From Tridacna crocea (Eukaryota; Mollusca; Bivalvia; Cardiida; Cardiidae): a DNA stretch of 64,000 nt. Positions 13,388-63,968 of the stretch are shown here, one piece after another (the stretch's first letter is position 1; each line of letters begins with the position of its first letter). Below the pieces are notes generated by a model. That model saw only the letters and a list, made by a program, of their open reading frames with translations, was not told the origin of the DNA and did not search any database. The position numbers and the translations under genes were made by a program. The stretch lies in NCBI GenBank assembly GCA_943736015.1, contig OX031064.1:37003361-37067360 (forward strand), given 5' to 3'.

Positions 13388-13614
13388 TTAACCCTTTCCC
13401 AAACAAGCCCTGGTTTTTACGTGTCTGCGGTAAAAGTCTGTTGAAAACAGTGTGGGAAAAGGAGAAATTGCTCGTAACGAGCAATTTCTCCTTTTCGCAC
13501 ACTGTTTTCTACCCTTTTTGAGAACTTTCTGCCATTTTCTCACAATCTAAAATTGTCATCTGCAAACTCTTTCGGTTTGGAAGAGTCCAAACTTTGTCGT
13601 TTGGGAAAGGGTTA
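13388..13614 (+). mobile_element. MITE-A with symmetric core variant
   Basis: The core reads CAGTGTGGG...AAATTGCTCGT, and both arms carry the same changes (ACGAGCAATTT...CACACTG), against ATTGTGGG...AAATGCTGGT in most copies. Confidence 0.8.
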
Positions 13615-13679
13615 CGCATCAAGTCTACTTCTCAACTTACTTCCTGACTGAGTGAAATACTGATAGAATCCAAATCCAA

Positions 13680-13825
13680 ATACTCTTTACCAGGCCACAA
13701 AATTCGAGACCTGTCAAAATGAAACTTGTGCAGGTAACATAGTGTGGTCTACATCAAAGAATTTGTCTTGAAAAAGTTTTAAAATATTGTGGAAAAAGAA
13801 GAAAATGCTTGCAAACAGTTTAACT
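13680..13825 (-). mobile_element. MITE-A, truncated
   Basis: Left arm CTCTTTACCAGGCCACAAA to one palindrome arm; the rest is absent. Confidence 0.4.
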
Positions 13826-14164: not shown

Positions 14165-14710
14165 CGATAAATTAAAATGGCCTGTGACATGCGAAAAGGG
14201 CCAATCGAACATTCGCGTAATGTATCGTTTCAGTTTAGCCTGTGCAGTCTGCACAGGCTAATCAGAAACGACACTTTACGATTTCGTTAGATTTTATCCT
14301 ACTGTGGACGTGTGTGAAACAGAAAATTTCATTAAAACGGAAAGTGTCACTTCCGATTAGCCTGCGCAGTCCCCTGCGTGGACTGCGCAGGCTAAACCGA
14401 AACGATACATTACGCAAATGTTCGAATGCCCCTTTTGCGTGTCGCAGGCCAAATATGGCTTGCAACACAGGAAAAGGGTCATTCAGACATTTACGTAAGT
14501 GTCAACTAAGGTCTGGCTGTGCAGTCTGTGCATTTTTATCCGAATGACACTTTCCATATTTATGTAAGTTTGTGTTTTGTGCAAGCCTACTGAAGGACAA
14601 AATGTAATACAGTGGAAAAGTGCTGTCTCGGATTAGCCTGTGCAGACTTCACAGACTGATCAGAGACGACACATTAGGCAAATGCCCCTTTTTTGTCACA
14701 AGATTATATA
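14165..14710. repeat. cluster of four GCGCAG-hairpin units
   Basis: AGCCTGTGCAGTCTGCACAG (14237), AGCCTGCGCAGTCCCCTGCG (14358), CTGTGCAGTCTGTGCA (14516) and AGCCTGTGCAGACTTCACAG (14635), each within CGAAAAGGGCCAT... ACACTTTACG-like flanks. Confidence 0.7.
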
Positions 14711-14881
14711 ACACACAGTGAAACACTCTCTCTCTGTCTTTTTTTTATTATTTGGGCCAACCGGATGTACCAAGGAAGCAAACCGTACTTACTTTACATT
14801 TTTCTCTCTTGGCCCTTTGTTAAAATATTGAGAAAAATGCAAATGCTTTGAATTTAGTCTTGTCCCCACAATGTGTTTGGT

Positions 14882-15735: not shown

Positions 15736-15789
15736 TTTGCTTGAGGGTAAAATAGAAGTACAGGTAATAGCAGTTTTGACAGAGTATCT

Positions 15790-16018
15790 TTAACTCATTA
15801 CCACACGAGAAAATTTTGGACTGGTCCAAATTGAAAGCATTTGCAGACGACAAAATAAAGGTGACTGAAAAATAGAAATTTGTTCTGGAAAGGGTAGAAA
15901 ACACTGTGGGAAAAGGAGAAAATGCTGGTTACCAGCATTTTCTCCTTTTCCCACAGTGTTTTCAAAAGGCTTCTTTCTCAGGGGCGTCAAAAGTAGGGAT
16001 TGAGTGGTAATGGGTTAA
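15790..16018 (-). mobile_element. MITE-A copy, intact
   Basis: TTAA ends and a perfect palindrome of the ACACTGTGGG/CCCACAGTGT subtype, changed on both arms. Confidence 0.85.
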
Positions 16019-16155: not shown

Positions 16156-16754
16156 TTAACTTTTTACCACACAATCCCCGTTGTCTGCGCATGTCATATT
16201 CTTCGAAGATTCGACTGTCTTATATGACGCATCACTACTAGCCCCGAAAGCGTGCTGACTGTAATATTACGCTCTATAAAGTAGCAATGTTGAAAATAGC
16301 TTTTACGTATCAATATGTTTGAGGAGAAATGAGACCTGCTTTAGCAACAGATTTTTCTAAACTGGTGATCATAGTTGAGTAAATTGCACGAGGTAGCGTT
16401 TTATTGGGTAAACCTTTTTTTTTTTGTTTTAAATTCAAAGTAACGGTTGTCGCGTAGGAAAGTGGTTCGGCTCTGTACCCAGGATGCCCATATCAGATAG
16501 ATGAGTATTTATAGAATGCCATCTAGCGGGAGATAATGCACAATCCCAAGTTCTAATGTTTATGGTATAAAGGACATTTGACAACATTGTGTAAATAGGA
16601 CAAAATGCTGGTACCAAACATTTTCTACTTTTCTCACAGTGTTTTCCCACCCTTTCTGGTAAAAATCCCATCATCTGATCATCATCTTATTTGCTGTCAG
16701 CAATTGCTTTCAATCTTGACCTATCTAAAGTTTTGTCCATTGGTAAAGCATTAA
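16156..16754 (+). mobile_element. MITE-A split by a 361-bp insertion
   Basis: TTAACTTTTTACCACACAAT begins the copy. It is interrupted at 16179-16539 and resumes as CAATCCCAAGTTCTAATG, ending in TTAA shared with the next copy. Confidence 0.7.
16179..16539 (+). mobile_element. 361-bp element, copy 1
   Basis: Starts CGTTGTCTGCGCATGTCAT and ends GCGGGAGATAATGC, with no clear inverted ends. Flanked by ACAATCCC on both sides. A second copy is at 55372-55719. No coding capacity seen. Target duplications of 8-10 bp would fit a Mutator-like or hAT derivative. Confidence 0.7.
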
Positions 16755-16979
16755 CTCATTACCAAACGACAATATTTTAGGCTTGTCCAAATCGAAAGCA
16801 TTTGCGGACGACAGAATAAAAGTGATGGAAAATTTGAAATTTGCTTTGTAAAGGGTAGAAAACATTGTGGGAAAAGGAGAAAATGCTGGTTACCAGCATT
16901 TTCTCCTTTTCCCACAATGTTTTCTAAAGACTTCTTTTTCAGGGGCGTCTAAAGTAGGGATTGTGTGGTAATGGGTTAA
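16751..16979 (-). mobile_element. MITE-A copy, intact
   Basis: Perfect 32-bp arms; shares its left TTAA with the preceding copy. Confidence 0.85.
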
Positions 16980-20148: not shown

Positions 20149-23100
20149 CTGGTAAATATAATGAAATGATTTAACACTTTACCACACAATCATGACTTTT
20201 AGCAACCCTGGGGTGGGAGGCTTTTGAAATCATTTTGGGAAAAGGAGAAAATGATGGTAACCAGAATTTCCTCCTTTTCCAAAAAAGTCTTCTTCCCTTC
20301 CAAAAACAAATCTTAATTTTTGAGTCATTTTCAATTTGCCGTCTTCCATGCTTTCAATTTGAAAGTCTAAAATTCTGTTGTTTGGTCAAGAGTTAAGTAA
20401 AGGCATAAATTGGTACCTTAAAAAAAATCATAAGACCAACTGATTTTATGAGATACTGCCATTATCATACCAGGATCAGGCTTCATTGATCTTTAAATTT
20501 ATATGTTTGATTATCACCTGTAATCATTCCATTGTAGGTAATACATACCTATATTTTACATTATTATATAAATCCGAAAATTTTCTGGCTCAAATACATG
20601 TATCACATGCAAATAAAGTATCACACACCATAGAAGGAAAATCTCTATTTAAATACATGTATTGTGAAATATAGTTCCAAATATGGTATCATGCAGAATC
20701 TCAAACCCAGAGTATGTATGCATCTATTTGTAATTTGACTGATCAAAATTTTATGCTGTAATATTCATCCGCCATTCATAAAAAACAAGTTGATGGTTAC
20801 CTCCCTATAACTTGTTTTATTCTGTTTATTATTTTTTAATAAAATATCAATAATTTGCAATATTTTGCCATTTAAAGGTTTATGTATATAATAAAACAAA
20901 TATCAGCATTTCTTTTCCCTGTTTTGGGAATAAGTTTAAAACCTTGCAGATTGGGAAACAAGAGGGCCATGATGGCCTGTGTTGCTCCTCTGGTTTACAA
21001 ACTGTACATACTACACATTACAATGCTTTGAAACAAAAAGCTTAAAGTTTTCTCTACAGACCCATGTGAAAGTTATGATCCATGGTGAAGCTCAAAAAGC
21101 TATCATCAACAGAGATGTAAAACTGTAACATGGAAATGTGCATACTTGACAAATGCTCCAGCTTTTTCAAGTTTAACTCTTAACCAAACAATTCCTATCT
21201 CAATGACCATTAGAATAAAGGCTTTTAAAAATGTGAGAAAGGAGAATAATTATGCTGGTTACCACTGTTTTGTCTTTATCGAACGATGTTTTCAAATGTT
21301 ATCAATTCTTCACCTAATCTTAGATTTGTCCAAATTAAAAGCTTTTGCAGAGGACAAAACAAATTTGACTAAAAAAATGAAATTATATTTAAAGGTTTAC
21401 AAAATATTGTGGGAAAAGGAGAATATGCTTGTCACCAGCATTTTCTCCTTTTCCACACAGTGTTTTCCAAAAGTTTCATCCTCAGGATCTGGCCTAAAAA
21501 AAATCTGTGTTCAGGTTTTCAGTCTGAGACACTGTAGGTAGGGTAGTTAGGGTTTTGTTTTTTTCTTTATTCTAAAAACTTTCTAGATGGAACATATACA
21601 GAAATCACATTCTATGGATAACTTTTTTTTTTTCAAACATAGTGAAAAAAATTTAGGGTCAGCAGATTTCTAGGTAGGGTAGGGAAACCCTAAACACAGT
21701 CCACGTTAAAAGTTGGTATTGTGTGGTAAAGGGTTAATAACAATTTAACCCTTTACGAAAAAATCCCTGCCTGAGATAGAAGCCTTTTGAAAACATTGTG
21801 GGAAAAGGAGAAAATGCTGGTAACCAGTGTTTTCTCCTTTTCCCACAATATTTTCTACCCTGTTGGGGACAAATTTCAAGTTCAGAGTTACGTTTATTTA
21901 GTTGTCTGCATGTGCTTTCAATTCGGACCAATCTAAAATTTTTTATTAAACCTTTACCACATGGAAAACTTTCAGACCAACTGAAAGCATTTGCAGATGA
22001 CAATTTCAATGAGGCTCAAATGGTGCAATTGTTAATTGATAGGGCAGAAAACATTGGGGGAAAAGGAGAAAATGCTGGCTACCAGCATTTTCTCCTTTTC
22101 CCACAATGTTTTAAAAAGGCTTCTTTCCTAGGGTCGTCAAAGTTGTCATTGTGTGGGAAAGGGTTTAGATCAATTGAGCTACACCAAATTTGTCTACAAA
22201 TGCGATCAAATTGGTCAGTCTAACATTTTCTTGCTTACTAAAGATTTAACTAAGTTTGAATGAACCTGAAAGTGGTAAATCTTAATACTAAAAGCAACTC
22301 TTACCTCTGTCACAAAATGTATGGGTAGAAAATGTTCCTCATTATCCACCAATGGCAAGTAGGCGATCTGTTCATCCATTGCATTGTCTATATGGGCCCC
22401 AGCCCCCATGGGCATATCAGTCTCACCCTCCATAGGTACCAGAGCAGAGAAGTGCCCTCTTGTATACCCTAGGGCAATGGGAGTTTTATAACAGAAGTTT
22501 CTCTCCCACAATAAAGGTAAATAAACCCCTGAAAATTAAGGAAATAAAATAATCTGTTTGTTTGCTTAGTGTTTAACCCATTACTACACAATCCCTACTT
22601 TTGACAAGCCTAAGAAAGAAACCTTTAGAAAAACATTGTGGGAAAAAGGAGAAAATGCTGGTTACCAGCATTTTCTCCTTTTTCCCCAAAATGTTTTCTA
22701 ACCTTTACTAAATGAATTTCAAATATTCAGTCACTTTTATTCTGTTGTCTGCAAATACTTTTAATTTGGACAAGCCAATGCTGTCGTGTGGTAATGACTT
22801 AACACAATTTTTAATATTATTTCAGTTGTATCATGGCAACTTGTGCACCTATCCACGAGCAGCTTTCTCAAATAAGCATACTAATTCCAACATAACTCAA
22901 TGAAAGAGGAATGATAATGTCATAATGACTTTATCATTAATCCTTAGAGATTTTGGCTGAACAGAGGAACCACATTAGCAACCCTAAGATAGTCAGTGAA
23001 CCACAGGTGGTGTCCATGGTTGTGCATCTTCATGAGCCAAGGTTACAATCACTACGTGGATCTTGCATGGCGGATCGAGCCCGATTTCGGTATTCCCGCA

Positions 23101-26100
23101 ACGCGCCCCCTATTGAATGCTGGTTATTATCCCCCTTTACATCACATTTCTTATAGCCAATGGAATATCATATTACAAACCGCTTACGAATACAATAATT
23201 CAACATGAAGCAATGACCACAACATACTTCGACATTCCATGGTCAGGTGCTGGGATACAGCCTTAAACCTCTGATAATTGATTGGTCATACTGAAACTTT
23301 CTGTAAATATTGTTCGTCTATGTTTTTTTACAGATCCTGCACACATCCACGGAGGTATCTGTGCTTACCTCCTATTTTTATCCAAAAGGTTGCGACCTTG
23401 TTCTATATTTTTATCAAAGATGAAATGCTACAAGCGATTTGATACGATGCAGTCAGAGCTCGCTGCAGACAATGAAAATGCGTATGGGGGAATGTCCAAA
23501 TCAAGCTTGATCTGCCAAGGGTAGAGTAGTGTAGTGGATTGTCACCCTTGGCTTGCAAAAATTATGGTTGTGAGGTAGAGCTTCAGACTCATATACATAA
23601 GTCCTGAGTTTAATTCCTGGTAGCAAGTGTCAACTTTGGGGCTTTTCATAGGCCCACACACTCAATGTGGTGTATTTTACAGAGAGCATAATCAAGAGAG
23701 ATTAATATCATTTGCAATAACTTGTTTCAACTTGTTTCTCAATAGATGTAAAAAAACCCATATATTTTAACCCTTTACCCCTTACGGCATTTCTATGGTA
23801 TCTCTAATTGATCCTTACTAACAGCAAGGATGAAGCCGTTTCTTATGTGTATATGACACGTTTTGATAGCATAGAAAACATTGTGACAAAAGGTGAAATT
23901 GCTCGTCATGAGCAATTTCACCTTTTGCCACAATGTTTTTCAAAGGCTCCTACAAGCAATGCGTAGAAATGAGCATCTGTGGAGAAAAGGTTTAACAGTT
24001 GGCCCTTGGAACAATGTAAGGCAGAACCTAAGTTTTTGGAGCACTGATAAAAAAAGAATTTGTAAGCTTTTTTTTTCCATTGGAATGGTCATTTTCTTAG
24101 ATATATCAATATATAAGGTGAAGCAGCTTGTCATGAGCGATTTCTTTATAAATAAAGGTCAAAATGTTTCTCTTCTTGTTTTCATGTATTCACACCAATT
24201 TCACTATTTTAGCACTCTCCAACCAATTATCTTTTTGTGAGCAGCCATAAGTGTGATAGAAATACTTAAAACTCTCAAACTGTGACGCTCAAAACTATAC
24301 TCACCTTCAAATCTAGCATAGTCAATATTTTCTCCCTTGTAACTCTTCACCACTTTAACTCCGTATACAATGATAGGTCTTCGTAAGATATGTGCCAACA
24401 CAAATATATGCATCTGCTCTAGACTAGCACCTGTCAATGTAACAATCATTGAATTGTATTCTGTGAAAAGATAGTTTAACCCTTTACCAAATCCCTAATT
24501 TTGAAAAAGTGCACTTTTGAAAACATCGTAGGAAAAGGAGAAATACTGGTAACCAGCAGTTTCTCCTTTTCCCATGGTGTTTTCTACCCTATCAAAGACA
24601 GAAATAATTCTAGCTAACCAACATTTGTCCCCTGCAAATGCTTTCAATCTGACCCTGTCCAAAATTTTGTTGATTGGTTGAGAGTTTATGCATTTACAAA
24701 AAACATCAGATTGGGAAAACTGACGGCAGTTAAAATCTTTTATTTTTGCTTTTTTACTTTTCCCACAATGTTTGCAACAGCCTGCTTCCACCAGGTTGTT
24801 AAAATGAGTCTGGGTACTAAAGGGTTAAAGTGAGAAATGTGTAAATATCTTCATGTTTGTGGTTCATAAAACTTTGAACAAAGTTTCAGAGCAGTGACAG
24901 CAAAACTGAGGTAGGAGTTTGCAATAGGAACATACATACCTGGCATGTTCATGTCAAAAAATGGACACACAGATGATCAACCCATTCAAGTATAGGGATC
25001 AGTGTTTTTTTTTTAGAATATTCATTACAAATACATCCATGAACTCAAACAGTAATTGTAGAGGACATGCCAAGCTCAACACTGTAGCAACTGGGCCATG
25101 CCTTTGACAGAAATAGTAGCAGTGGTTTTGATATGTCACATCACAGTTTGTAACATTGGAATTGGAAAACTGAATCAAGCCCTGGCAAAATTCTTTAACC
25201 CTTTATCACACAATCCCGACTTTTAATGACCCTGAGAGATAATCCTTCTGAAAAAAATGTTGGAAAAGGAGAAAATGCTGATAACCAGCATTTTATCCTA
25301 TTCCCACAATGTTTTCTACCCTTTCCATAACAAATTTTCATTTTTCAGTCACATTGATTTTGTCATCTTCAATTGCTTTCAATTTGGTCTAGTCCATTAT
25401 TTCGTCATTTGGTAAAAAGTTAAGCAGTTTTAATTTTGTGATTGCAATACTGTTAGCTCCACTCCCATTTTGGAACATTGTATTTATTCTGTTTATGTGG
25501 AGAGGGAGCAGCCAGTGACTTGCAAGGAATATTTCAAATAAAACTGGTAACAAATATTAGAACCCGAGGTTAGGTGAGTGTCTACCATGGAAATAACAAA
25601 GATATTGTTGAAAGTGAAAATAAAAATCTAAAACAATTTTGCCCTTGATAAAGAGGAGACATATTACATGTACCTGGCTGGTTGGCTAACGACAGAAGCA
25701 CCGCCCAATCTCTTTCTAGTTGCTCTTCCTCCAAAGAATACCTGAATGGATAATGCATTGTGTGGGCCTGCATGGACTCGTATTCTTTCCATTTCGGATA
25801 AAATCTGAAACAATTAACAGTACATACTCCTTAACTCTTTACCAAACGATAATATTTGGGGCTTCTCCAAATCCAAAGCATTTGAAGATGACAAAATAAA
25901 TGTAAAAGAAAATCTGAAATTTGTTTTGTGAAGAGTATAAAACATTGTGAGAAAAGGAGAAAATGCTGGTTACCAGCATTTTCTCCTTTACTCACAATGT
26001 TTTCTAGAGGCTTCTTTCTCAGGCTTGTCAAAAGTAGGGATTGTGTGGTAATGGGTTAACATGAAAAAACTACAACTTTAAGCATGCTAATATATACATG

Positions 26101-29100
26101 GACTGATCACTGATCCGCCCTGTCCAGCATTTTTGAGAGATAGTTGTGAATGCAGGCAACCAATCAAATGTAGCTAAAATGATGGCATGTACTATCATTT
26201 TTATCAATTGAGTTGACATAAATTGCATGCATTTTAGTCCACGAGTTTGATTAAAATGATAATAAATAAACACAAATGTGAGATTCTATTTATCACTTTT
26301 AAAACAAATGCAAGACAGACAAATATCCTATCATCACCTTATCCTCAAATCTGTTAACAGGTCCAAGTTTACAGAAGTAGTTTGGTTTCAAATATGCATA
26401 TACAAAAGTAAATAGTTTTTTGATGTCTATGCAGAAAGAATAAATGAAATACTTCATAGGAGTTAAATTCACATTTTCCCACTATGATATTGGTTTTAAG
26501 AGACTTTTGCTACATTACTTTGTTTTTATCGAACATAAAAATAAAACATTTCTATGTGTATATGCCTTAGCATCAGTGACATCATTTTTCCATTTTCCTA
26601 TATCATTGTTTGATAAAGTGTTAACTATTTTCACATAAAACAATAGGTTATTATCAATTTTCAGTCATGAACGTGTGAAGCCACACATAGTTTTTTTTTT
26701 GTCGAATGTCATTTTTCCATGAAAAAGCATCGCAGTACAAATTCCCAAAAATGCTGTGTTTGGTTTTCGCTGGCTTCACACGCTCATGACTGGAAGTTGA
26801 TCAGAACTGGGACCAATAAACAATAATACATTGGTGTATTATTAAAAACAAGAGCGGCAAATTGTTGCAAGATACGCCCGTCTTACCCCAAGTTGTAAAG
26901 CTGGGGCATGCACCAGACTAAATTCGAGTATGAAAAAAGACAAAGGGCAGTAACTCATAAATTAAGCCAGCAAGAGTTATGATTCCTGTGCACTGCACTC
27001 CCCCTTGATGAGATCTATCCACCCATGAAATTTCATAACCCTAGCTAGTATAGTTTTGGAGATTTTCACCGGACAAAAATCAAGTACGAAAAATGACAAA
27101 GGGCAATAACCCAAAAATTAAGCAAGCAAGAGTTATGATTCTTGTGCACTGCACTACCCCTTGATGAGGTCTATCCACCCATGAAATTTCATAACTCTAG
27201 CTAGTATAGTTTTGGAGATATGCTCCGGACAAAATTCAAGTATGAAAAACAACAAAGGGCAGTAACTCAAAAATTAAGCCAGCAAGAGTTATGATTCCTG
27301 TTCACTGCACTCCCCCTTGGTGTGATCTATCCACCCATGAAATTTCATAACCCCACCTACTATAGTTTGGGAGATATGCTCTGGACAAAATTTAAGTATG
27401 AAAAACGACAAAGGGCAATAACTCAAAAATTAAGCAAGCAAGAGTTATGTTTCCTGTGCACTGCACTCCCCCTTGGTAAGATCTATCCACCCATGAAATT
27501 TCATAACCCTAGCTAGTATAATTTTGGAGATATTCACCGGACAAAATTCGAGTATGAAAAACGACAAAGGGCAATAACTCAAAAATTAAGCAAGCAAGAG
27601 TTATGGTTCCTGTGCACTGCACTCCCCCTTGATGAGATCTATCCACCCATGAAATTTCATAACCCTAGCTAGTATAGTTTTGGAGATATGCTCCGGACAA
27701 AATTCGAGTATGAAAAACGACAAAGGGCAATAACTGAAAAATTAAGCAAGCAAGAGTTATGGTTCCTGTGCACTGCACTCCCCCTTGATGAGATCTATCC
27801 ACCCATGAAATTTCATAACCCTAGCTAGTATAGTTTTGGAGATATGCTCCGGACAAAATTCAAGTATGAAAAACGACAAAGTTTAATAACTCAGAAATTA
27901 AGCAAGCAAGAGTTATGGTTCCTGTGCACTGCACTCCCCCTTGATGAGATCTATCCACCCATGAAATTTCATAACCCTAGTTAGTATAGTTTAGGAGATA
28001 TGCTCTGGACAAAATTCAAGTATAAAAAATGACAAAGGGCAATAACTCAAAAATTAAGTGAGCAAGAGTTATGGTTCTTGTGCACTGCACTCCCCCTTGA
28101 TGAGATCTATCCACCCATGAAATTTCATAACCCTAGCTAGAATAGTTTTGGAGATATGCTCCGGACAAAGAACTGGACGCCGCCCGCCCGCCCGCCCGCC
28201 CGCCCGCCCGGACGCCAGCCCGCCCGGACGCCCGCCCGGACGCCCGCCCGCCACGGGTGATCCCATAATACGTCCCGTCTTCGACGGGCGTATAATAAGT
28301 CATGGCTTTTATACACTGCCAGAGGAGGTTTTATGTGAAAATAGTTAACACTTTACCAAACAATTTCGAAAAGTTGAAATTTGATTTGAGAAGGGTAGAA
28401 AACATTGTTGGTTAAGGAGGAAATGCTGGTAACCAGCATTTTCTCCTTTTTCCACAATGTTTTCTACCCTATCAAAGACTCATCCAAACATTTGAGTAAC
28501 ATTTAATTTGTCATCTCTATTTGCTTTCAGTTTGGTTGAATCAATAACTTTGTCTTTTGGTAAGGAGTTAATCCTTTACCGCGCAATGACAACTTTTGAT
28601 GACCCTGTGGTAGAAGCCTTTTGAAAGCATTGTAGGAAAAGGAGAAAATGCTGGTTATCAGCATTTTCTCCTTAACCCACAATGTTTTCTACTCTTCCCA
28701 AATCAAATTTCAACTTTTCAGTCACACTTATTTTGTTGTCTGCAAATGTTTTCAATTTGGACCACTCTATTATAAATTTGTTGCTATGTAAAGAGTTAAA
28801 GGTGGCCCTTAAGATTTTGGGACTAAAATTTTACAAAAATGCAAAAAAAATCATCCTTATACTCCCATAGCCTTTTAATTTGCCTTCATAAAACCCCAGC
28901 AGTCAAAAACCATCCGATAACACGAAAAATTAGAGATTTATTACGGTCCAGGTTGACACCAATGGGACACACGTTCTATTTTTAGTCTATCAATTCTCTC
29001 ATTTAAATACAGGAAAACACAGACAAAGCTTCAAACATCCGTCCGAAGAAGACATTATGGAAAATAATTATTACATGTTTGTTATGTAATAAAATTTAAG

Positions 29101-32100
29101 CGTTATTAGTCATGTGCAAGTCACTTGACATTCCCACAAAGCTTTATTCATTTTTGGCGCCAATTCTAAAAATAGCTTAAAAGGCTACTTAGCCTTTTAA
29201 GGGTATACAATCAACAAAATTTTTTTTGTAATTTTATGATTCTTAGTTAATGATGATTTGTATTGTTTTTTAGTATAAATTTCAATAATATATATATCTT
29301 TTAATTTGGTGTGATGTGAAAATTCTAAATACCCACCTTTAAAGCCGTCTTCAAGATAAATACCATACTTACTTGTTTGCAGCTTCAGACAGACTGTCAG
29401 ATAAAGCTTGTCTCAGTGTATTATCTATGTCCAGTACTCCCCATGTTGCTTGCAATACAGAATCAAGGAGACAGTCTCCTGCTGTCCTGTTCCACAGAGC
29501 ATACAGACGACTCCCAAGTTTCTCTGTCAGTTCTAAACTCCAGTTCACGATGAACTCCTCTGCCAGTTCTGAAACGAGGAACAAATCTTAGAAAGTATGA
29601 AAAAATCAAATAATATTTCATAAATATAAAAATTGAAGAGTTTTAAATTCAACTTTTCCTATACTTATTTATTTGTGAAGTCTCCGAGTAAGCAGATATA
29701 TACAGATTTTATTTGTAAACAGGCTCCTAACATCATAATATTAATTTTATATGGCAGAAATAAAAAAGAATACACTTTGTCCTTGCAACTTATGATTGAT
29801 TGTTTGCATGGTGTTGAACGCTTTTTCCAACATAATTTAGGTTATACTGCTGTGGCCAGTGCACTTATCCATGCTTCCCTGTAGTTTCTTAACCCATTAC
29901 CACACAATCCCTACTTTTGACGCCCCTGAGAAAGAAGCCTTTTGAAAACACTGTGGCAAAAGGAGAAATGCTGGTAACCAGCATTTTCTCCTTTTTCCAT
30001 AGTATTTTCAACCCTTCCCAGAACAAATTTCAATTTTTCAGTCACCCTTATTTTGTCGTCTGCAAATGCTTCCAATTTGAACCAGTCTAAAATTTTGTTG
30101 TGTGGTAAAGAGTTAAACCATGACTCTGCTCAATATTTTTTCCAAGCTACTAGCTTCTTTCCCACATAACCATTATCAAACCAATGGTCAACAATTAGAG
30201 AGGAATGATTCCTGTTGCAATGAGTATCATCAATCCTCAGAAAGCAATTGGCCTCGCCAGAGATCAAACCAGTGACTCCCCGTTCTCAAGGCCTTTTCAC
30301 TTTACAGTTTACTACAGAAACAAGAGAGCTATGATGGCCCTGAAATCGCTCACCTGAGTCTATTGACCAAACATGAACCATTTTCAATCTAGTTTCCCAG
30401 TGACCTAGTTTTTTACCAGACATTACCCATTATCAAACACTTTTGAGATATCAATAAGACAAACATTCTAAAAACATTCTAACCAACTTTCAGTATTGGA
30501 CTGAAAATGTGGCCTCTATAGCATACCAAATGTTTTCCTAAGATTTGACCAAGTGACCTGGTTTTGGACCCGACAATTACCCATTATCAAACTCTTTTGA
30601 GACATCACCAAAACAAACATTCTGACCAAGTTTGAAGAGTATCAGGCAGAAAATGTGGCTTCTAGAGTGTACACAAGGTTTTTCTAATATTTGACCTAGT
30701 TTTTGACCCAACATGACCCATTTTCAAACTCATCCAAGATATTATTAAGGCAAACATTCTGACAAATTTTCCAGAGTGTTGGAATGAAAATGTGGCATCT
30801 AGAGCGTATACAAGGTTTTTCTAAGATTTGACCTGGTAACCTAGTTTTTGACCCAACATGACCCATTTTAAAACTCGTGTGGGATATCATCAAGACAAAC
30901 ATTCTGACCAACTTTCAAGAGTTTTGGACTGAAAATGTGGCCTCTAGAACGTACACCTAACCCATTTTCAAACTCATCCAAGATATCATCAAGACAAACA
31001 TTCTGACCAAATTTCACGAGTATTGGACTGAAAATGTGGCCTCCAGAGCGTACACAAGGTTTTTCTAAGATCTGACCTAGTGACCTAGTTTTTGATCTGA
31101 CATGACCCAATTTCCAACTCGTCCGAGATATCATCAAGGCAAACATTCTGACCAAGTTTCATAAGTATCGGACGAAAAAGGTGGTCTCTAGAGTATACAC
31201 AAGGTAAAAAGTGTAAAAAGGTAAAAAGTGGACGACAGACACAGCACTATCACAATAGCTCACTCCTAGAACTTTGTGCTCAGGTGAGCTAAAAATATGA
31301 AATGAAAAACAGAACTCGATAAATTTAATCTCCATAGCTTAACCAAGTATGGTACATTCTTTTCAAGAAAGTGGAAAGCATAGATCTATTTGCACTTTGC
31401 AAAGCAAGAAAAAGTTGAAGTTTGCACATCAGAGTGTCTGTGCAAGTTATGACCTTCTGCTCAATTAAAATCTAATTTTCCGTCAAAATGCTGAAACTGT
31501 CTGTTTCATTGTTTAACAAAGGATAATTATGTGTGTATGAATTAATCTTTCATTCCTGATTACACATGCAAGTAATTGAAATACTTAATATAGTTCATAC
31601 TTAGGTAAAAACTTAAGTATAGATGGTTGAGGTCATTTATTGTTACTTGCTTTTGTAAAAACTGCTAACCTTAGAGTCTGTGATCATAAATCATTGGGCA
31701 AACAAAAAAAATCCAAGTCATAATTCAATTTTACCTTTATCTACATCACTGTCCAGATTTTCATCAAACAACTGTGTCTGAACATGTCGTGGTAAATCTT
31801 CTATCTCTGCAAACAGGTCAAGATATAATTTGAATAGTTTATACAGTAGAAGAACACAAAAATCTATTAACCCTTTACTTCGTAGATACTCATTTCTACG
31901 CATTGTTTGTAGGAGCCTTTGGAAAACATTGTGGCAAAAGGTGAAATTGCTCATGATGAGCAATTTCACCTTTTGTCACAATGTTTTCTACAGTATCAAA
32001 AGTGTCAAATACACATAAGAAATGGGTTCATCCTTGCTGTTATATAGGGTCAGTCAGAGATACCATAGAAATGCTTTATGGGGTAAAAAGTTAAATTACT

Positions 32101-35100
32101 CATAATGATCAAAAAAGTGAATTAAACTTCCTGCTGAAAAGACAGCTACGGAATCACAAGAAAAAAATCAATTTTCTCTTTCTGCAACAATTATTCTATT
32201 AGACATCAAAAAAAAATATCACCTGGCCATTATGTTACAATTAAGTTTTTACTACACAACAAAATTTTAAAATAGTCCATATTCAAAGCATTTGCAGATG
32301 GCAAAATAAACATTACTCAAAAGTTGAAATTTATTTTGGGAACGGTAGAAAACATTGTGGGAAAGGAGAAAATGTTGGTTAGCAGCATTTTCTTCTTTCT
32401 CCAAAATGCTTTCAAAAGGATTTTTTCTCAAGGTCATTAAAAATCTTAGCTGTATGGTAAAGGATTAAGACTATTAACCCTTTCCCACACAATGATGACT
32501 TTTAACGACCCTGTGGAAGAAGCCTTTTGAAAACATTGTGGGAAAAGGAGAAAATGCTGGTAACCAGCATTTTCTCCTTTTCCCACAAAGTTTTCTACCC
32601 TATCAAAGAAAAAGTGTGTCATTTGAGCCACTATAAAATTGTCGTCTGCAAAATTAATGCTTTCAATTTGGGTATGTCTAAAATTTTCCTGTGAAGTACA
32701 GAGTTAACCTTCAATGTCAAATAAATGTACCTTTTCTTCAGCTGTTCTGAATGCAAGAATTAACTATGAAAAACATTTTGCACCAAAGGAAAATATGTTG
32801 TTTTGGTATGAAATTCAGTGTACATAGGAAAAGGGCAACTTCAAAAAATATGAAGCAAAAGTGTGACATTGGGGGTCAAATTTCAAACCTGTTTTATCAT
32901 GGCGCTTTTTCTATTTTTTGGACTAGGAGACATCCAAGTTCAAGGAACAAGCACTTCTACACGCAAAAAAAATGTAGAACTTGACCAAAATTAATGTTTT
33001 AATATTTTTTTCATCAATTTTTTTCAATTTGTTAGTTGACAAAAGAATTGATACTACACACAGGCATTAAGAAAAATGTCAATCTTTTTAATTTAGCTTT
33101 AGGGGGAAGTGTTTAGGGCACCATTTTAACACAATTTTTCTCACACATATCTATTTATTTTTTTCTTATAGGATTTTTTTTAGTATTTGAGCCGTATATT
33201 TTCATTCGACACATCCCAAAGTTTTTTTCACTGGTAAAATGGGCAAGCTAAAGTGAAAAAACATATATGTTAATATCAATGAAGGTATTGCCAAAGCATA
33301 TGTAAAATTTTAATTGGTTATGATGAATATCAGAGTTGTTAGGTCTGTGTCAAAAACATGACATTATTTAGAAAAAAAATGTTACACTTGTGACACTTTC
33401 AAAACTAAGGGTTTTTGTTTAAAATTTGCATTCTAATACCAAATTCTTTTCACATTTAGAATCTTTTGGTAATCACAAATGATTAAAGAGCAATTTGCAA
33501 GTAACCTTTCAACTTTAGGAGGAACAATGAAGAAAAATGATAAGGGAAGCTATTCTTATCTAAATTGGCAATACTGTTTTACTTTTTTCACAAATGACTC
33601 ATGAAAGTGGTAGAATCTCTCATTCTGCAAACAGTTATAAACTATCAAATCATAATAAAACAATTTGTTATAAGTTTAAAGCCCCTGCCATAATCTGTAG
33701 GCTAGTTTTAAAGGTACCTTATATGCTACACTTGTGACAAAAGTAGTAATAATGACAAAAATAATTATTTTACTTCAGTACCTGGTTTTTATTTTCAAGT
33801 TCTTTACCATGCAACAAAATTATTGGCCTGCTCCAATAGAAACTGCTTACAACACATTTAAGGTGTGTAAAATTGTAGAATTGAGCATTGATAGGGTAGA
33901 AAACATTGGGTGGAAAAGGATAAAATGCGGTGTACCACCATTTTCTCTCTTTTTAGAGGAGTGAAAGAGATTTAACCCTTTACCAAAATATAACATTTTA
34001 GACTTGTCAAAATTGAAAGCCTTTGCAGACAATATTTTTAATAAATGTGACCAGCATTTTCTCCTTTTCCCACAATGTTTTTCAAAGGCTTCGTTCTCAG
34101 GGTCCTCGAAAGTAGGTATTATGTGGTAATGGGTTAAATGGAATCTGTAACAAACCAACTACTTTTTCTCTCAACACACAATATGAAAGGGGAAATCATC
34201 AAATGAGCATACAATCATGTTTGATGAGTTTCTTGAATTAGTTTTCAGTTTTCTGGCATGTTCTTAGTCTGAACAAACTTGTTGAGGGCTCCTAATTTTT
34301 GTTCAAGATTTTTGTTAACACCCTTCTGAAAGTGAGATATAAGCTTTTACATTTCTTTGGGATCAATTTCAATAAAGTGATAAATTTTCTGTGAAAGTTA
34401 GGATTGGCCTTTATGAATTACTTGTACAGTTTAAGCTTTGAATAAAGTAGATGCCATTTAACAATGGAATGCCTCCAATCAACACAGTGTCTCTTTTGTT
34501 TGGCAATTTTTTGGAGTTTTCTTCTAGGAAAAGACTTTTGTCATTGCTTTCTTTTTGAAATAACCTCTATATCAAATGATGAATCCTTTTTTCTCTGCTG
34601 TTTTACTTTCTGTACAAAGTTCTTGCTTCTATTACAGCCTTCTTAATTTTTTACTTCTGTGTTAGTCCTAGGTCAGTTTTTAAGTCTCTCTCGTCACTTT
34701 CTTACACATGCTTTGAAGCTTGAAAATTTCTTTTCACATGTATTGGCAAAGGATTTACCTTTATATTGTAACTTAACAACAAGTCTGAAGTTCATTTTTC
34801 AGTTTCTTTAACTAGCTGTGGAATTAAGAAATTTATAATGATTAATTCTTGAAATGTATGATTTTTGTCACAAGTGTAACATTTTAGGGCATCTTACTGA
34901 TTTTGGCAAAAACCACCAGATTTCCTTTGAAATTAATTGTAATCTTTTGACTTTTAGGTAGATAAATAATTTAACATTATATCTGACTGAAAAAACTGAA
35001 ATGAATCTGTATAATAAAACAGATATCTGATGCCATTTTCCTGCTATATCTTAGTTTTATAGATCTATTAAAATTTCTTTCACAGAATTGCTAAAATCTC

Positions 35101-37691: not shown

Positions 37692-37767
37692 TGTTTCCTT
37701 ACTAGGCGAGGCTGAAAATATAATAAAATAAGCATAACATTATACAATACATTTGCGACATTATGAT

Positions 37768-37994: not shown

Positions 37995-38448
37995 TTAACT
38001 CATTACCAAACAACAATATATAAATTGGTCCAAGTAGATTTGGTTGTATTGGGGTTTAACGCCACTTTAACAGCTAAGGTCATATCATGGCGGTCGGTGA
38101 CGCACACGTGTTTCCTGGCTTTCTCACCACTTACATTACTTTCTTTCCAAAGCCACCGACTACTTTTCTCACATGCTTCAGCAGAGGTGAGAGGCTAAAA
38201 TACGCCGGAAAGAAAGTTCGCTTCAACCGGGTATCGAACTCACAACCACCAGAAAGCATTTGCAGACGACAAAATAAAAGTGACTGAAAATTTGAAATTT
38301 GTTTTGTGAAGGGTAGAAAACATTGTGGGAAAAAGAAAAAATGCTGGTTACCAGCATGTAACCAGCATTTTGTCCTTTTCCTACAATGTTCTCTAAAGGC
38401 TTCTTTTTCAGGGGCGTCAAAAGTAGGGATTGTTTGGTAATGGGTTAA
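37995..38448 (-). mobile_element. MITE-A interrupted by a SINE
   Basis: TTAA ends. The arm breaks at TTGGTCCAAG (38032) and resumes at AAAGCATTTGCAGACGAC (38255). The palindrome loop has a duplicated GTAACCAGCAT. Confidence 0.75.
38030..38252 (-). mobile_element. tRNA-derived SINE inside MITE-A
   Basis: On the minus strand GAGTTCGATACCCGG (a B-box-like block) lies near the 5' end, and the 3' end carries GGCGTTAAACCCC. The latter block is familiar from dispersed bivalve SINEs; family naming is not attempted. Confidence 0.6.
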
Positions 38449-38645: not shown

Positions 38646-38875
38646 AACTCATTATCAAATGACAAAATTTCAGAATGAAAGTGACTGAAAATTTGAAATT
38701 TCAAAATCAAAGTGACTGAAAATTTGAAATTTGCTTTGTGAAGGATAGAAAACATTGTGGGAAAAGGAGAAAATGCTGGTTACCAGCATTTTCTCCTTTT
38801 CCCACAATGTTTTCTATGGGTAGTTCTTTCTCAGGGACATCGATCAAAAGTAGGGATTATGTGGAAATGGATTAA
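38644..38875 (-). mobile_element. MITE-A with internal duplication
   Basis: AAAGTGACTGAAAATTTGAA occurs twice in a row at 38675-38735. Palindrome perfect; TTAA ends. Confidence 0.75.
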
Positions 38876-42616: not shown

Positions 42617-42852
42617 TTAACTCATTACCAAACGACAATATCTTGGGATTTGTCCGAATCGAAAACATTAATTTGCAGAGGACAAGATAAAAGTCACTGA
42701 AAATTTGAAATTTGTTATGTGAAGAGTAGAAAACATTGTGGGAAAAGGAGAGAATGCTGGTTTACCAGCATTTTCTCCTTTACCCACAATGTTTTCTAAA
42801 GGCTTCTTTCTAAGGGTCGTAAAAAGCAGGGATTGTGTGGTAATGGGTTTAA
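42617..42852 (-). mobile_element. MITE-A copy
   Basis: TTAA ends; duplicated bases in the left arm (ACATTAATTTGCAGAGG). Confidence 0.8.
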
Positions 42853-43052
42853 TATGGGACACTTTCAATACTTTCACTACCTTTAAGTTTTTCCAAGTTA
42901 GCTGATAACTTTTGTGTGACAGGAAGTTTATAATGTGGTTGGAAGTGTACAGATTGTTGAGTGTTTTTGACATTGATTAGTGAAGTATACTCTAATAAGA
43001 TTCACATTCATGCTGTGAACTATTCCTCCTTTAATGATGGGTTGACTGTCTT

Positions 43053-43281
43053 TTAACGCATTACCACACAATCCCTACTTTTGACTCCCCTGAGAAAGAA
43101 GCCTTTTGAAAACACAATGGGAAAAGGAGAAAATGCTGGTAACCAGCATTTTCTCCTTTTTCCCATAGTGTTTTCTATCCTTCCCAGAACAAATTTCTAT
43201 TTTTCAGTCACCTTAATTTTGTCGTCTGCAAATGCTTTCAATTTGGACCAGTCTAAAATTTTCTCGTGTGGTAAAGAGTTA
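43053..43281 (+). mobile_element. MITE-A copy, chained
   Basis: Core subtype with ACACAATGGG; runs into the next copy through TTACCC. Confidence 0.8.
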
Positions 43282-43500
43282 CCCATTACCAAACGACAAT
43301 ATTTCAGACTGGTCCAAATTGAAAAGGCAAAATAAAAGTGACTGAAAATTTGAAATTTGTTTTGTGATGAGTAGAAAACATTGTGGAAAAAGGAGAAAAT
43401 GCTGGTTACCAGCATTAATTTTTCTCCTTTTCCCACAATGTTTTCTAAAGGCTTCTTTCTAAGGGGTGTCAAAAGTAGGGATTGTGTGGTAATGTGTTAA
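43279..43500 (-). mobile_element. MITE-A copy, chained
   Basis: Left arm lacks GCATTTGCAGACG; distal palindrome arm carries an extra AATTT. Confidence 0.75.
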
Positions 43501-43664
43501 GCCCCTTTCTGATTAGATAAAAGCTGGGGGAGTGCTAAGTAGAGGGGAAGCCATGTTATTAACCAGCATTTTTTTCTTCCTTTTCCATTTCATACTTTTT
43601 TCTACTAATTCTACACTTTCAATGTCACATGATATTACTTGAATCACTTTTAGTATGGCATGTA

Positions 43665-43893
43665 TTAACTCTTTACCACACAATCCCGACTTTTAACAAC
43701 TCTGGGAAAGAGGCCTTTTGAAAACATTGTGGGAAAAGGAGAAAATGCTGGTAACCAGCATTTTCTCCTCTTTCCACAATGTTTTCTACTCTTTCCAGCA
43801 AAAATTTCAATTTTTGAGTCAAATTTATTTTGTCATCTGGAAATGTTTTCAATTTGGAAAAACCGACAATTTTGTTGTTAGGTAATGAGTTAA
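43665..43893 (+). mobile_element. MITE-A copy, first of a chain of four
   Basis: Intact TTAA ends; right TTAA shared. Confidence 0.85.
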
Positions 43894-44118
43894 AGCTTTA
43901 CCACACAATCTCGACTTTTAACAACTCTGGGAGAGAGGCCTTTTGAAAACATTGTGGGAAAAGGAGAAAATGCTGGTAACCAGCATTTTCTACTTTTCCC
44001 ACAATGTTTTCTTCCCTTCCTAAAACAAATTTCAATTTTTGATTAACATTAATTTTGTTGTCTGCAGTTGCTTCCAATTTAGACAAGTCTAAAATTATGT
44101 TGTTTGGTAAAGAGTTAC
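43890..44118 (+). mobile_element. MITE-A copy, second of chain
   Basis: Same orientation as, and very similar to, the previous copy (ACAACTCTGGGAGAGAGGCC); right TTAA reads TTAC. Confidence 0.8.
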
Positions 44119-44346
44119 CTCTTTATCCGAACATCAAAATTTTAGACTGGTCCAAATTAAAAGCAGTTGCAGACAACAAAATAAATTTAATTAAAAGAAT
44201 GAAATTTGTTTCCAGCAGGGTAAAAAACATTGTGAAAAAAGAAGAAAACGCTGGTTACAAGCATTTTCTCCTTTTCCCACAATGTTTTCAAAAGGCTTCT
44301 ATCTCAGGGTCGTAAAAACCAGGGATTGTTGGAGAAAGGGTTTTAA
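44115..44346 (-). mobile_element. MITE-A copy, third of chain
   Basis: Several unpaired bases in the palindrome (GAAAAAAGAAGAAAACGC). Confidence 0.75.
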
Positions 44347-44569
44347 CTCTTTCCCATACGACAAAAACTTAGACTGGTCCAAATTGAAAGGCTTTGCAGA
44401 CAACAAATTAAATGTAACTGGATTGATGATTTTTGTTTTGGATCAGGTAGAAAACATTGTGAGAAAAGGAAAATGCTGGTTGACAGCATTTTCTCCTTTT
44501 CCCTCACAGTTTTCAAAAGCCTTCTTTTACAGAGACATTGAAACTCAATATTGTGTGGTAATGAGTTAA
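44343..44569 (-). mobile_element. MITE-A copy, fourth of chain
   Basis: One arm one base shorter (GAAAAGGAAAATGC). A further worn half-copy follows at 44570-44740. Confidence 0.75.
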
Positions 44570-44758
44570 TACTGGTAGACAGCTTTTTCTCAGTTTTCCA
44601 CAATGATAGCCACTCTATAAAAAGCAAATTTCGTCATTTGAGCAGGAAATGTATATACACATCTATATGTATCCCTAATTTGAGCCAAATTCAATGCATT
44701 CAATTTACACAGGGATAAATTTTTGAAATCAAATCAAGATAGAATTTGCTTTATTGCC

Positions 44759-44972
44759 TTAACTCTTTACCACAAAATCCCCACTTTTAACGACCCTTGA
44801 AAAGAAGCCTTTTGAAAACATTGAGGGAAAAGGAGAAAATTTTCTCCTTTTCCCACAATGTTTTCTACCTTTCAAAAATCAAAATTCAATGTTTGATTCA
44901 CATTTATTTTGTCGTCTGCAAATGGTTTCAATTTTGACTAGTCCAACATTTTTTCGTTTGGTAAAGAGTTAA
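44759..44972 (+). mobile_element. MITE-A with loop and inner arms deleted
   Basis: The centre reads AGGAGAAAATTTTCTCCTTT: TGCTGGT and ACCAGCA are both missing, leaving a shorter perfect palindrome with no loop. Confidence 0.8.
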
Positions 44973-45213
44973 CTCTTTACCACATGGCAGTACTATAGAC
45001 TGGTCTAAACTGAAAGCATGTGCAGACGCAACATCAAATGAAGCTCACATATTTGCTTCGTTTCTCTGGAAGGCTAGAAAAACATTGCGGAAAAGGAAGA
45101 AAATGCTGGTTACCAGCATTTTCTTATCATCATTTTCTACTCTTTCTACAATGTTTTCAAAAGTCTTATCTCTGAGAGTTGTTAAAACTGTAGATTGTGT
45201 GGTAATGGGTTAA
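44969..45213 (-). mobile_element. MITE-A copy, chained
   Basis: Shares TTAA with the loopless copy; about 15 extra bases in the distal arm (CTTATCATCATTTTCTACTC). Confidence 0.7.
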
Positions 45214-45333
45214 TGAATGTGTCATTGTATGAAGCCAGAATTCTCAACAGCATCTGTAGCTGAAGAATCAATTAGCTTGAAAATGAAGTCTTTGCTCCTA
45301 GTTTGCTACTATTAAGTCTTATGACTTAGGCTG

Positions 45334-45562
45334 TTACTCATAACCAGACAACATTATTTTAGACTTGTCAAAATCAAAAAGTATTTGCAGACGACAAAAT
45401 AAAAGAGACTGATAATTTGAAATATGTTTTGTGAAGGACAGAAAACATTGTGGGAAAAGGAGAAAATGCTGGTTACCAACATTTTCTCCTTTTCCCACAA
45501 CGTTTTCAAAAGGCTTCTTTTCCAGGAGCATCAAAAGTAGGGATTGTGTGGTAATGGGTTAA
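45334..45562 (-). mobile_element. MITE-A copy
   Basis: Right TTAA intact, left reads TTAC; one mismatch in the core (TTACCAACATT). Confidence 0.8.
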
Positions 45563-47084: not shown

Positions 47085-56314
<9,230 letters not shown>

Positions 56315-59434: not shown

Positions 59435-59451
59435 AATAAATACAAGAAATA

Positions 59452-62600: not shown

Positions 62601-63968
62601 CGAGTTAAATCCCACAATTTTACCCAAATTTAACTTGTGCTAAATGGGTTAAACAAATTTGGAAGGGAAAATCCCCCACCACCATTTACATGGTGATGAG
62701 ACTTATTTTCCAGTAGGAAGTGTCAATGTCCTAAAATTCCCTCATTTAATCCTTTATACCAAACAATCTCTTGTTTTCATAACCCTGAGAAAGAAGCCTT
62801 TTGCAATTTAATAGTGGGAAAAGAAGAAAATGCTGGTAACCAGTTATTTTCTCGTCCCATATTATTTTCTAGCCTTATCAGAGAGCTCAAGTTCATTTGT
62901 ACAATTTTCAATCTATTGCCTGCAGGTGTTTTGAAGTTGGAGCCCCAAATTCAGTGTTTGGGAAAGAGTTTACCCTTTACCTCACAATGACGACTTTTAA
63001 CGACCCCGAGGTAGCAGCCTTTTGAAAACATAGTGGGAAAAGGAGAAAATGCTGGTAACCAGCATTTTCTCCTTTTCCCACTATGTTTTCAAACCTTCCC
63101 AAATCAAATTTGGATATTTCAGTCACATTTATTTTGTTGTCTGCAAATGCTTTCAAGTTGGACCAGTCTACAAATTTGCTGTTTGGTAAAGAGTTAACCC
63201 TTTACTCCATAGATGCTCATTTCTACGCATTGCTTGTAGGAGCATTTGGAAATAGGTGAAATTGCTTGTGATGAGCAATTTCACCTTTTGCCACAATGTT
63301 TTCTATGCTGTCAAAAGGTAAGAAACAGCTTCATCCTTGCTGCTATTTAGGGTCAAGAAGAGATACCATAGAAATGCCTTATGGGGTAAAGAGTTAAAAG
63401 AACACTGCAGAGGTGTTATTTATAAGGGTATCTGTTCCAGAGAAAGGGCTCACACTTAAATTCTTTACCACACAAGCAAATAATAGACTAGTCTAAAGTG
63501 AAAGCATTTTTTTCAGACAACAATTTAAACATAGCATAAAAGATGGAAAATACCTCTGATAGAGTAGAAAACATTGTGGGCAAAGGAGAAAATGCTGGGT
63601 TTCCAGCATTTTCTCCTTTTCCCACATGGTTTTCAAAGGGCTTCTTTCTAGGGGCCGTTAAAAGTCAGGCTTGTGTGGTAATAAGTTAACTCTTTACCAC
63701 ATGAGAAAATTTTAGTAAAGGTGTTCTGGGAAGGGTACGAAACACTGTGGGAAAAGGAGAAAATGCTGGTTACCAGCATTTTCTCCTTTTCCCGCATGGT
63801 TTTCAAAGGGCTTCTTTCTAGGGGTTGTTAAAAGTCAGGCTTGTGTGGTAATGAGTTAAATACTAGATCATGTTTTACCTCTATTTTTATCCTCAACAGT
63901 CTAATCTTTTCTTGGGCTTTAATGTTGATTTCTTCCAGTTCCACTGTATCTGTGGAAGCTCTGATATC
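59452..63968 (-). CDS. BNIP1: BNIP1 (SEC20) SNARE, 5 exons, N-terminus beyond the right edge
   Basis: Joined exons 63968-63879, 61970-61879, 61433-61338, 60227-60106 and 59642-59452 give 196 residues and a stop, in consistent phase. The human protein is 228 aa, so roughly 30 N-terminal residues lie outside. Order: N-terminal coiled region (DIRASTDTVELEE...), linker helix (LTSLRKTNLSVKMAIDKNEK), SNARE helix (KETLAKAANDITETLMELNQ through HEEFKSMGSQIQ), and a tail-anchor membrane segment LLIFIALVFFFATVLYIL with KRRLWS at the end. The family is the Qb-type ER SNARE that works with syntaxin-18, USE1 and SEC22B in Golgi-to-ER retrograde fusion, and is also linked to mitochondrial dynamics. The conserved RELTDKLLIF before the anchor settles identity. 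Confidence 0.95.
59711..59825 (+). mobile_element. 5'-truncated copy of the same SINE
   Basis: Only the body and tail are present (GCGCGAGTACTGGTGTAGTT to GATGTAAAATAAATATG), next to BNIP1's last exon. 5' truncation is typical of retroposition. Confidence 0.7.
59826..60043. mobile_element. chimeric MITE-A in the last BNIP1 intron
   Basis: Left end is the forward arm (CCGACTTTTAATGACCCTGA), right end the same arm in reverse (CCATTAAACTCTGGATCG). Normal copies carry two different arms. Two imperfect palindrome arms lie between. Confidence 0.55.
60106..60227 (-). CDS. BNIP1: BNIP1 exon, SNARE helix
   Basis: NINNKETLAKAANDITETLM then ELNQTMDAQVRKGNLTLTTL. The pattern KE[ST]LA....ITE[ST]LM...M..QV is shared with vertebrate BNIP1. 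Acceptor TTTTACAACAG, donor CTAG|GTACAG, exit phase 1. Confidence 0.95.
60354..60567 (+). mobile_element. MITE-A with short left deletion
   Basis: TTAACCCCTACTTTTGACGC lacks the ATTACCACACAAT block. A left-end fragment of another copy is at 60243-60282. A worn piece follows at 60575-60685. Confidence 0.75.
60755..61146 (-). mobile_element. older MITE-A hosting a younger one
   Basis: Outer copy runs to CTGAGGTAATTTAA and resumes at TTAAAATAGGATTGTTTGG after the nested copy. Confidence 0.65.
60904..61119 (-). mobile_element. MITE-A nested in MITE-A, BNIP1 intron
   Basis: TTAA ends; palindrome nearly perfect. The GCATCAAAAGTAGGGAT block near the right end is deleted. Confidence 0.85.
61338..61433 (-). 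CDS. BNIP1: BNIP1 exon, linker helix
   Basis: NLTSLRKTNLSVKMAIDKNE then KEELLSGGTRK, as in the vertebrate SWRKANLTCKIAIDNLEKAELLQGG region. Acceptor TTTTTAG, donor AAAAG|GTAAAT, phase 2 both ends (96 nt). Confidence 0.95.
61879..61970 (-). CDS. BNIP1: BNIP1 exon, coiled region
   Basis: ELERLGKEQDKTEDREVILK then NVENHRQRLT and a split Ser codon. It aligns with the vertebrate LEQLAKEQDKESEKQLLLQEV-type region. Acceptor CTTGTAG, donor ACAAG|GTAAGA, exit phase 2. Confidence 0.94.
62060..62275 (+). mobile_element. MITE-A copy without left TTAA
   Basis: Begins TTCACACAATGACAACTTG behind a fragment of another copy (62000-62058); palindrome well kept. Confidence 0.75.
62419..62653 (+). mobile_element. 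MITE-A with AT-rich interruption
   Basis: Left arm to CTTTGAAAACATAC, then ~60 bp with (TA)n repeats, then the rest of the palindrome and a right end at TGGGTTAA. Confidence 0.55.
62746..62972 (+). mobile_element. MITE-A, worn core, chained
   Basis: TTAA at left; distal arm eroded (TTATTTTCTCGTCCCATATT). Confidence 0.65.
62969..63197 (+). mobile_element. MITE-A with symmetric ATAGTGGG core
   Basis: Arms read ACATAGTGGGAAAAGG and CCTTTTCCCACTATGT: the same unusual change on both sides. Right TTAA is shared with MITE-B. Confidence 0.85.
63194..63397 (-). mobile_element. MITE-B copy, chained to MITE-A
   Basis: TTAA ends; most of the left palindrome stem base (ACATTGTGGCAAA) is missing. Confidence 0.8.
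63456..63689 (-). mobile_element. MITE-A copy, chained
   Basis: TTAA ends; distal arm CCCACATGGTTTTC. Confidence 0.8.
63686..63859 (-). mobile_element. MITE-A with arm deletion, next to a BNIP1 exon
   Basis: About 55 bp of the left arm are missing after GAAAATTTTAG. Ends 20 bp from the exon donor at 63879. Shares its distal-arm changes (CATGGTTTTCAAAGGGC) with the neighbour. Confidence 0.8.
63879..63968 (-). CDS. BNIP1: BNIP1 exon (first one inside the window)
   Basis: Thirty codons DIRASTDTVELEEINIKAQE then KIRLLRIKIE. Acceptor TTTTGCAG, donor GAG|GTAAAA, phase 0 both ends. A MITE-A copy begins 20 bp downstream of the exon on the minus strand. Upstream exon(s) are beyond 64000. Confidence 0.92.

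Follow-up and report, generated by a model that had tools for sequence, protein, structure and literature searches.

The stretch of DNA analysed here, hereafter the window, comprises 64,000 nucleotides of contig OX031064.1 from Tridacna crocea. Its G+C content is ~36%, with 2-kb means of 0.31-0.42, and a small mobile DNA element is abundant in it. The reverse strand also carries the exons of a deubiquitinase, since Pfam AnkUBD, RanBP zinc fingers and OTU were found in three of the seven open reading frames (ORFs) scanned, a set that we take to represent a ZRANB1/Trabid-like gene. MITE copies lie between these Pfam matches.

The element is a TTAA-flanked MITE of 229 bp in which a palindromic core of 67 bp, consisting of two 33-bp arms and a centre base (33 + 1 + 33), is embedded. 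The consensus sequences of its two subfamilies, A and B, are each exactly 229 bp long (107 bp on the left, 67 bp of core and 55 bp on the right), with the core at a fixed position, off-centre and apart from the element ends. These ends are inverted repeats starting at TTAA. The B consensus starts with CCCTTTAC from both ends, which fits the terminal CC[C/T]T motif, and the A consensus starts with CTCTTTACC when read from its left end and with CCCATTACC when read from its right end, in both cases a single base away from this motif, with fitting variants among the copies. The TTAA target duplication is found at both ends, as in piggyBac-type MITEs, and by its structure the element is a non-autonomous, TTAA-inserting member of that type. 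An autonomous partner of the piggyBac type would be expected to have ends of the CCCTTTACC or CCCTTTCCC type; no transposase was found in the scanned ORFs (7 of the 46 in the window with at least 90 codons). End-like motifs (34 sites of the left and 32 of the right type, at up to one mismatch) did not enclose an unrelated hairpin in any further element either.

Copies were collected with a palindrome profile (nhmmer), which gave 113 merged matches in the window at any score, 77 cores at a score of at least 25 and 65 well-preserved cores at a score of at least 40. The last set is the base for our counts and includes 58 cores labelled A, the one at 13443 among them, and 7 labelled B; where we speak of 57 A copies, the mosaic at 13443 has been left out. 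As cores were identified via core similarity, this census leaves out copies whose cores are lost or decayed, and in flank-only searches no scored core adjoined 23 of the 84 left-flank matches and 13 of the 73 right-flank matches. The left end is recognisable in 58 of the 77 copies (exact TTAA in 36), the right end in 54 (exact TTAA in 43) and both ends in 51, with TTAA at both in 28. Three nested copies, at 49414, 54806 and 61011, lend support to these ends and to the TTAA duplication, since their flanks, when joined with a single TTAA, align to uninterrupted relatives at 69-73% identity with small gaps. The features to which we refer are as follows.

438-63804, both strands: total span of the 77 core copies (nhmmer profile)
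13388-13615, reverse strand: element C, mosaic or intermediate; core 13443-13509; ends of the CCCTTTCCCAAAC type
15790-16018, forward strand: element of clade A2; core 15897-15963; pair 8 is C-G; TTAA at both ends
16751-16979, forward strand: element A with a perfect consensus core, 16858-16924; TTAA at both ends
22215-37739, reverse strand: deubiquitinase exons (zinc fingers, AnkUBD, OTU; Pfam)
28345-28571, forward strand: rearranged copy, L-core-L; core 28398-28464; left-type flank on each side
38316-38393, forward strand: core interrupted at the hairpin tip by 11 inserted bp, which look by eye like a fold-back copy
44759-44972, reverse strand: element with a shortened core, 44814-44865, 15 bp gone at the tip
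47486-47716 (outer bounds approximate), forward strand: element B; core 47595-47661; B pairs 14, 21, 26 and 31; perfect arms
49307-49535, forward strand: element A with a perfect core, 49414-49480, and diverged flanks; nested at TTAA within an older family member
62969-63197, reverse strand: element A; core 63024-63090; pair 9 changed from T-A to A-T, unique to this copy
63194-63397 (far end approximate), reverse strand: element B; core 63245-63303, outer arm shortened

Several of these copies are rearranged. The one at 28345-28571 is the sole L-core-L hybrid flagged by a scan of the 77 cores and looks like the product of recombination through the palindrome; judged by eye, its two left-type pieces come from different subfamilies. 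In the core at 13443, pairs 26 and 31 are B-like, pairs 14 and 21 are A-like, pair 8 is a private G-C and pair 13 is mismatched. Both of its B-like pairs could stem from one conversion tract across the tip. The remnant at 44814-44865 is a 52-bp palindrome with no loop and one mismatch, and at 9178-9194 a core is reduced to 17 bp between recognisable left and right flanks. The elements at 62969 and 63194 have a common TTAA at 63194-63197. Dense MITE clusters, with nested and abutting copies, occupy 42700-45510 and 62800-63860. A TIR-like motif in the core arm, ATTGTG-GGAAAAGG, gave shuffle P values of 0.006 and 0.0095 against one right-end variant and of ~0.05-0.06, 0.03, 0.5, 0.6-0.7 and 0.2-0.3 against five others, and we make no claim for it.

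Arm changes within and between subfamilies

An earlier note on this DNA held that the two arms of the palindrome covary between copies, kept alike either by hairpin-templated repair or by selection on the hairpin itself, as DNA or RNA. The element starts that it gave (13388, 15790 and 62969), its named variants and MITE-B are all present as described, and the paired variants of the 13388 copy are real, together with one unpaired change at pair 13 in that copy. The covariation itself is found between subfamilies (pair 8 and pairs 14, 21, 26 and 31) but not otherwise within A. Scored against the A consensus, 186 changes are one-sided, and most of the 65 copies have at least one of them; complementary two-sided changes number 39 and non-complementary ones 12 (33 pairs per core, 14 gapped cells set aside). 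Most of the complementary doubles belong to seven B copies (pairs 14, 21, 26 and 31) and six A copies (pair 8). The 57 A copies show 171 one-sided, 11 complementary and 9 non-complementary two-sided changes, the 11 comparing with 6.5 by a shuffle in which right-arm letters were permuted within divergence classes (P=0.04). Once pair 8 is left out, 162 one-sided changes stand beside 5 complementary ones, against 3.9 by shuffle (P=0.34). As far as the data tell, the arms drift independently within family A, where not all one-sided changes are proven private.

With complementary changes at chance level, hairpin-templated repair as the main force finds no footing in these counts. Two further double changes among the B copies, at pair 31 (58877) and pair 32 (31922), are of the C>T/G>A kind at CpG sites, and independent decay may account for them.

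Between the subfamilies, the cores are identical at 58 of 67 sites, and the nine differing sites correspond to four complementary pairs (14, 21, 26 and 31) and the centre base. The flanks without the ends are identical, ungapped, at 35 of 89 and 17 of 37 sites (39-46%; shuffles give 24.4 and 9.5), so that by sequence they are near saturation, though probably homologous. The probability that eight arm changes at random would yield four complementary pairs is ~9e-8. The fifth paired change, at pair 8, defines one clade of six A copies (A2). Paired and unpaired changes thus stand at 5:0 for the subfamilies, by consensus, and at 5:162 within A (Fisher P=2e-7). Five copies outside A2 have C at site 8 with no G opposite (four C.A and one C.T). 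These are possibly unpaired source states, so one unpaired subfamily change may have to be allowed, and the same test then gives P=1.2e-6. The source events are few: five pairs, from a single genome and a single 64-kb window. Covariation above the chance level is confined to the subfamily-diagnostic pairs and one mosaic copy. It is therefore largely accounted for by a few source subfamilies, an outcome that the earlier note had named as telling against its reading, and it is the paired nature of the changes that still needs explaining.

On the A flank tree, 24 core states occur in at least three copies and two of them, both sides of pair 8, are clade-structured; one-sided core states at sites 6, 15 and 53 come near (P=0.05-0.07) and may likewise be unpaired source states. 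Since a tree built from the flanks is circular for the flanks, trees were made from half of the flank columns and the other half was tested, in 12 splits. On these held-out trees, a flank column has on average 0.203 clade-structured states and a core column 0.029 (the sides of pair 8 only), and in none of the 12 splits was the core as high as the flanks. The contrast is weaker by two other measures, namely the clade-structured share of the states recurring in at least three copies (2/24 in the core vs 40/230 in the flanks, P=0.39) and the steps saved per copy (0.102 vs 0.135), and the per-column contrast hence rests on few recurrent core states.

Rates of change in the core and its flanks

The 58 A-labelled copies have a mean divergence from the consensus of 0.199 in the flanks and 0.060 in the core, which bears out the earlier statement that flanks drift more. 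On a fixed topology, the branch sums for flank and core are 9.6 vs 3.2 on terminal branches and 1.12 vs 0.14 on internal ones. When young copies were picked on one half of the flanks and measured on the other, the core:flank ratio was 0.54, 0.42, 0.43 and 0.28 from youngest to oldest. As the youngest ratio lies below 1, neutrality after insertion is only approximate. A value of 0.87 for the youngest bin was set aside as inflated, the copies having been picked on the same flank data. A spectrum of singleton versus shared columns was likewise rejected as a test of selection, since the flanks are near saturation and their singleton count is lowered.

Young groups allow a finer view. In the young A2 group, 16/401 core changes compare with 49/923 flank changes (P=0.34), and in a larger young group 39/1072 compare with 234/2430 (P=1e-10). 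With states unique within each group counted (6 and 16 copies), the outer 15 pairs change at the flank rate (27/660 vs 140/3353, P=1.0), and the inner 18 pairs and the centre, at 14/813, fall below it (P=0.0006). We read this inner-arm deficit as source constraint leaking into the terminal branches, because the sample of copies is limited to 64 kb; unequal mutability of the inner sequence may be another cause. Arm-to-arm repair as the cause should have left many matched inner changes in A, and the 57 copies have none. Over the 57 A cores, inner pairs 16-33 have about half the changes of pairs 1-15, in both the G-C and the A-T classes.

Explanations for the paired arms

Independent drift in A, paired differences between subfamilies and a conserved core beside diverged flanks are what we observe; selection as their cause, and a role in transposition, is what we infer from them. 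The observations suggest that multiplication of the element depends on the palindrome. We propose, at somewhat better than an even chance, that it is a cis-acting element for MITE amplification, its symmetry being kept by selection at the level of the source copies. An inserted copy would decay, with its arms mutating independently, and the founders of subfamilies would be copies with a symmetric core. Along source lineages, the core sequence would be conserved and would change only as complementary pairs, which would arise in two steps or occasionally in one, via template switching. The palindrome might be recognised, through its two-fold symmetry, by a protein dimer, which would be a host factor or the transposase encoded by an autonomous partner; alternatively, the hairpin extruded from the DNA might itself be what acts. 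On sequence grounds, a symmetric protein-binding site would fit the paired subfamily changes as well as a hairpin does. Since the A and B cores differ at only 4 of their 33 pairs when the flanks have changed at more than half of their sites, sequence as well as symmetry appears to be preserved, and a constraint on structure only would permit many more compensated changes, which favours a recognition site. Our analysis therefore suggests that a two-fold symmetric dimer site is the most likely fit, with a hairpin of fixed sequence also possible. Selection on the hairpin, the other half of the earlier reading, has support for subfamily-founding lineages; this support does not extend to individual copies, nor to the hairpin as RNA.

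The RNA version, in which the hairpin would be selected as a miRNA or siRNA precursor or as a structured transcript, strikes us as very improbable. Its 33-bp stem is like those of MITE-derived miRNA precursors, for example hsa-mir-548 from Made1 as it has been described (PMC1784062), but the changes that wobble pairing would tolerate show no strand preference. Among the one-sided transitions in the 65 copies, G-T (51) and A-C (45) are equally common (P=0.61), hence there is no RNA-level signal, and Rfam gave no match in the window at the gathering score. Hairpin template switching alone, by which one arm is copied onto the other and the arms match without selection, is unlikely but has more in its favour. 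Homogenised arms and inverted spacers are known products of such switching, according to accounts of other systems (PMC8604942; PMC8794818), and here, of 11 changes to the centre base, oriented by the flanks, nine turned it into its complement (P=0.0014 vs one third, with no correction for shared descent). These flips are T>A in 7 of 58 A copies and C>G in 2 of 7 B copies, with T>A elsewhere in the core at 1.7% per site. The tip insertion at 38316 resembles a fold-back copy, and at 22630 an A-run is longer by one in both arms, one of which has another base besides. On the other side, the excess of centre T>A over the arm spectrum (A only) is modest (P=0.03), and the seven A flips amount to six steps on the tree, so some may share descent. 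Complementary doubles within A are at chance, which makes conversion rare, and a core changed at 13% of its sites beside flanks changed at 54-61% would not result from homogenisation alone. The window is thus like the template-switch systems, as these are described, in the inversion of its centre base in several copies, and differs from them in that arm homogenisation within family A is not above chance (PMC8604942; PMC8794818). The centre flips probably point to template switching that is rare and not absent, and such events could supply ready-made paired changes for selection among sources.

Pure subfamily history and gene conversion between copies are two further explanations, both of which we consider improbable, to about the same degree. 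If the founders of the subfamilies had carried paired differences by chance and nothing were selected, covariation beyond chance would be confined to subfamily-diagnostic pairs and one mosaic copy, just as we see. What speaks against pure subfamily history is the low probability, given above, of four complementary pairs from eight neutral changes, and the conservation of the core beside near-saturated flanks. Gene conversion between copies could keep the core uniform, palindromes being recombination-prone, and the perfect cores amid diverged flanks at 38748 and 49414, the L-core-L hybrid at 28398 and the mosaic at 13443 would be in keeping with it. It is opposed by the young copies, which gain core changes, in the outer arms at the flank rate, and by the one-sided changes in most of the 65 copies.

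Source-level selection may have a wider bearing. We put forward tentatively, and at rather less than an even chance, that the large internal palindrome of a TTAA MITE is under selection as a transposition element and that each amplifying subfamily must re-establish its two-fold symmetry. If so, a transposon population would be a natural selection experiment on the function of a DNA hairpin or dimer site, with dead copies as a built-in neutral control. Because decaying copies approximate the neutral rate and subfamilies show the changes passed through sources, the need for the MITE interior and the role of its symmetry would become testable. The approach may also offer a means of telling template switching from selection as the cause of a compensatory change.

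Known systems and other hairpins in the window

The Made1 palindrome derives from its terminal repeats, whereas the present one is internal, separate from the ends and has no RNA signal. The two are alike in being palindromic MITEs in which a long hairpin is possible, as far as Made1 and hsa-mir-548 are described (PMC1784062). A closer parallel is offered by the CMITEs of Acropora corals, TTAA MITEs reported to have an internal region more conserved between families than the ends, a conservation that the Discussion of the coral paper calls unexplained (PMC2872659). The element studied here shares with them, on that account, the TTAA duplication, apparently piggyBac-like ends of the CCCTTTCCC type, a small size and the lack of coding capacity, and it likewise has an internal region conserved between families (core 58/67, flanks 35/89 and 17/37) (PMC2872659). 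CMITEs are given as ~100 bp with a 75-bp internal region, and at 229 bp the present element lies outside that length; it is also set apart from the CMITE description by its off-centre 67-bp palindrome and its paired changes (PMC2872659). The letter string "palindrom" has 0 occurrences in the CMITE paper (PMC2872659). In piggyBac, the C-terminal domain is reported to bind, as a dimer, an internal repeat of 19 bp that is palindromic, and activity is reported to be stimulated by further transposase sites (PMC7351741). The likeness lies in a symmetric site within a TTAA transposon; the piggyBac repeat, as described, is 19 bp and near the ends, and the putative site here is 67 bp and internal (PMC7351741).

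Among the top matches in the open-access literature for a palindromic TTAA MITE or for source-copy covariation, nothing was closer than the CMITEs, and among the matches listed no paper was recognised as describing the present element. Three core words searched in open-access text led to one zebrafish paper, with the shortest word once, and exact matching of the A and B core words to viral contigs gave 0 and 0.

The window contains hairpins of other sequence as well. Long inverted repeats, perhaps other fold-back elements, are found at 6411-6571 and 11724-11872, with arms of 79 and 71 nt that are 86-87% complementary and spaced by 3 and 7 nt. Further hairpins, at 1624-1674, 3055-3119 and 14216-14280, have CTGCGC or CCTG(C/T)GC words, which presumably recall repeats of bivalve genomes.
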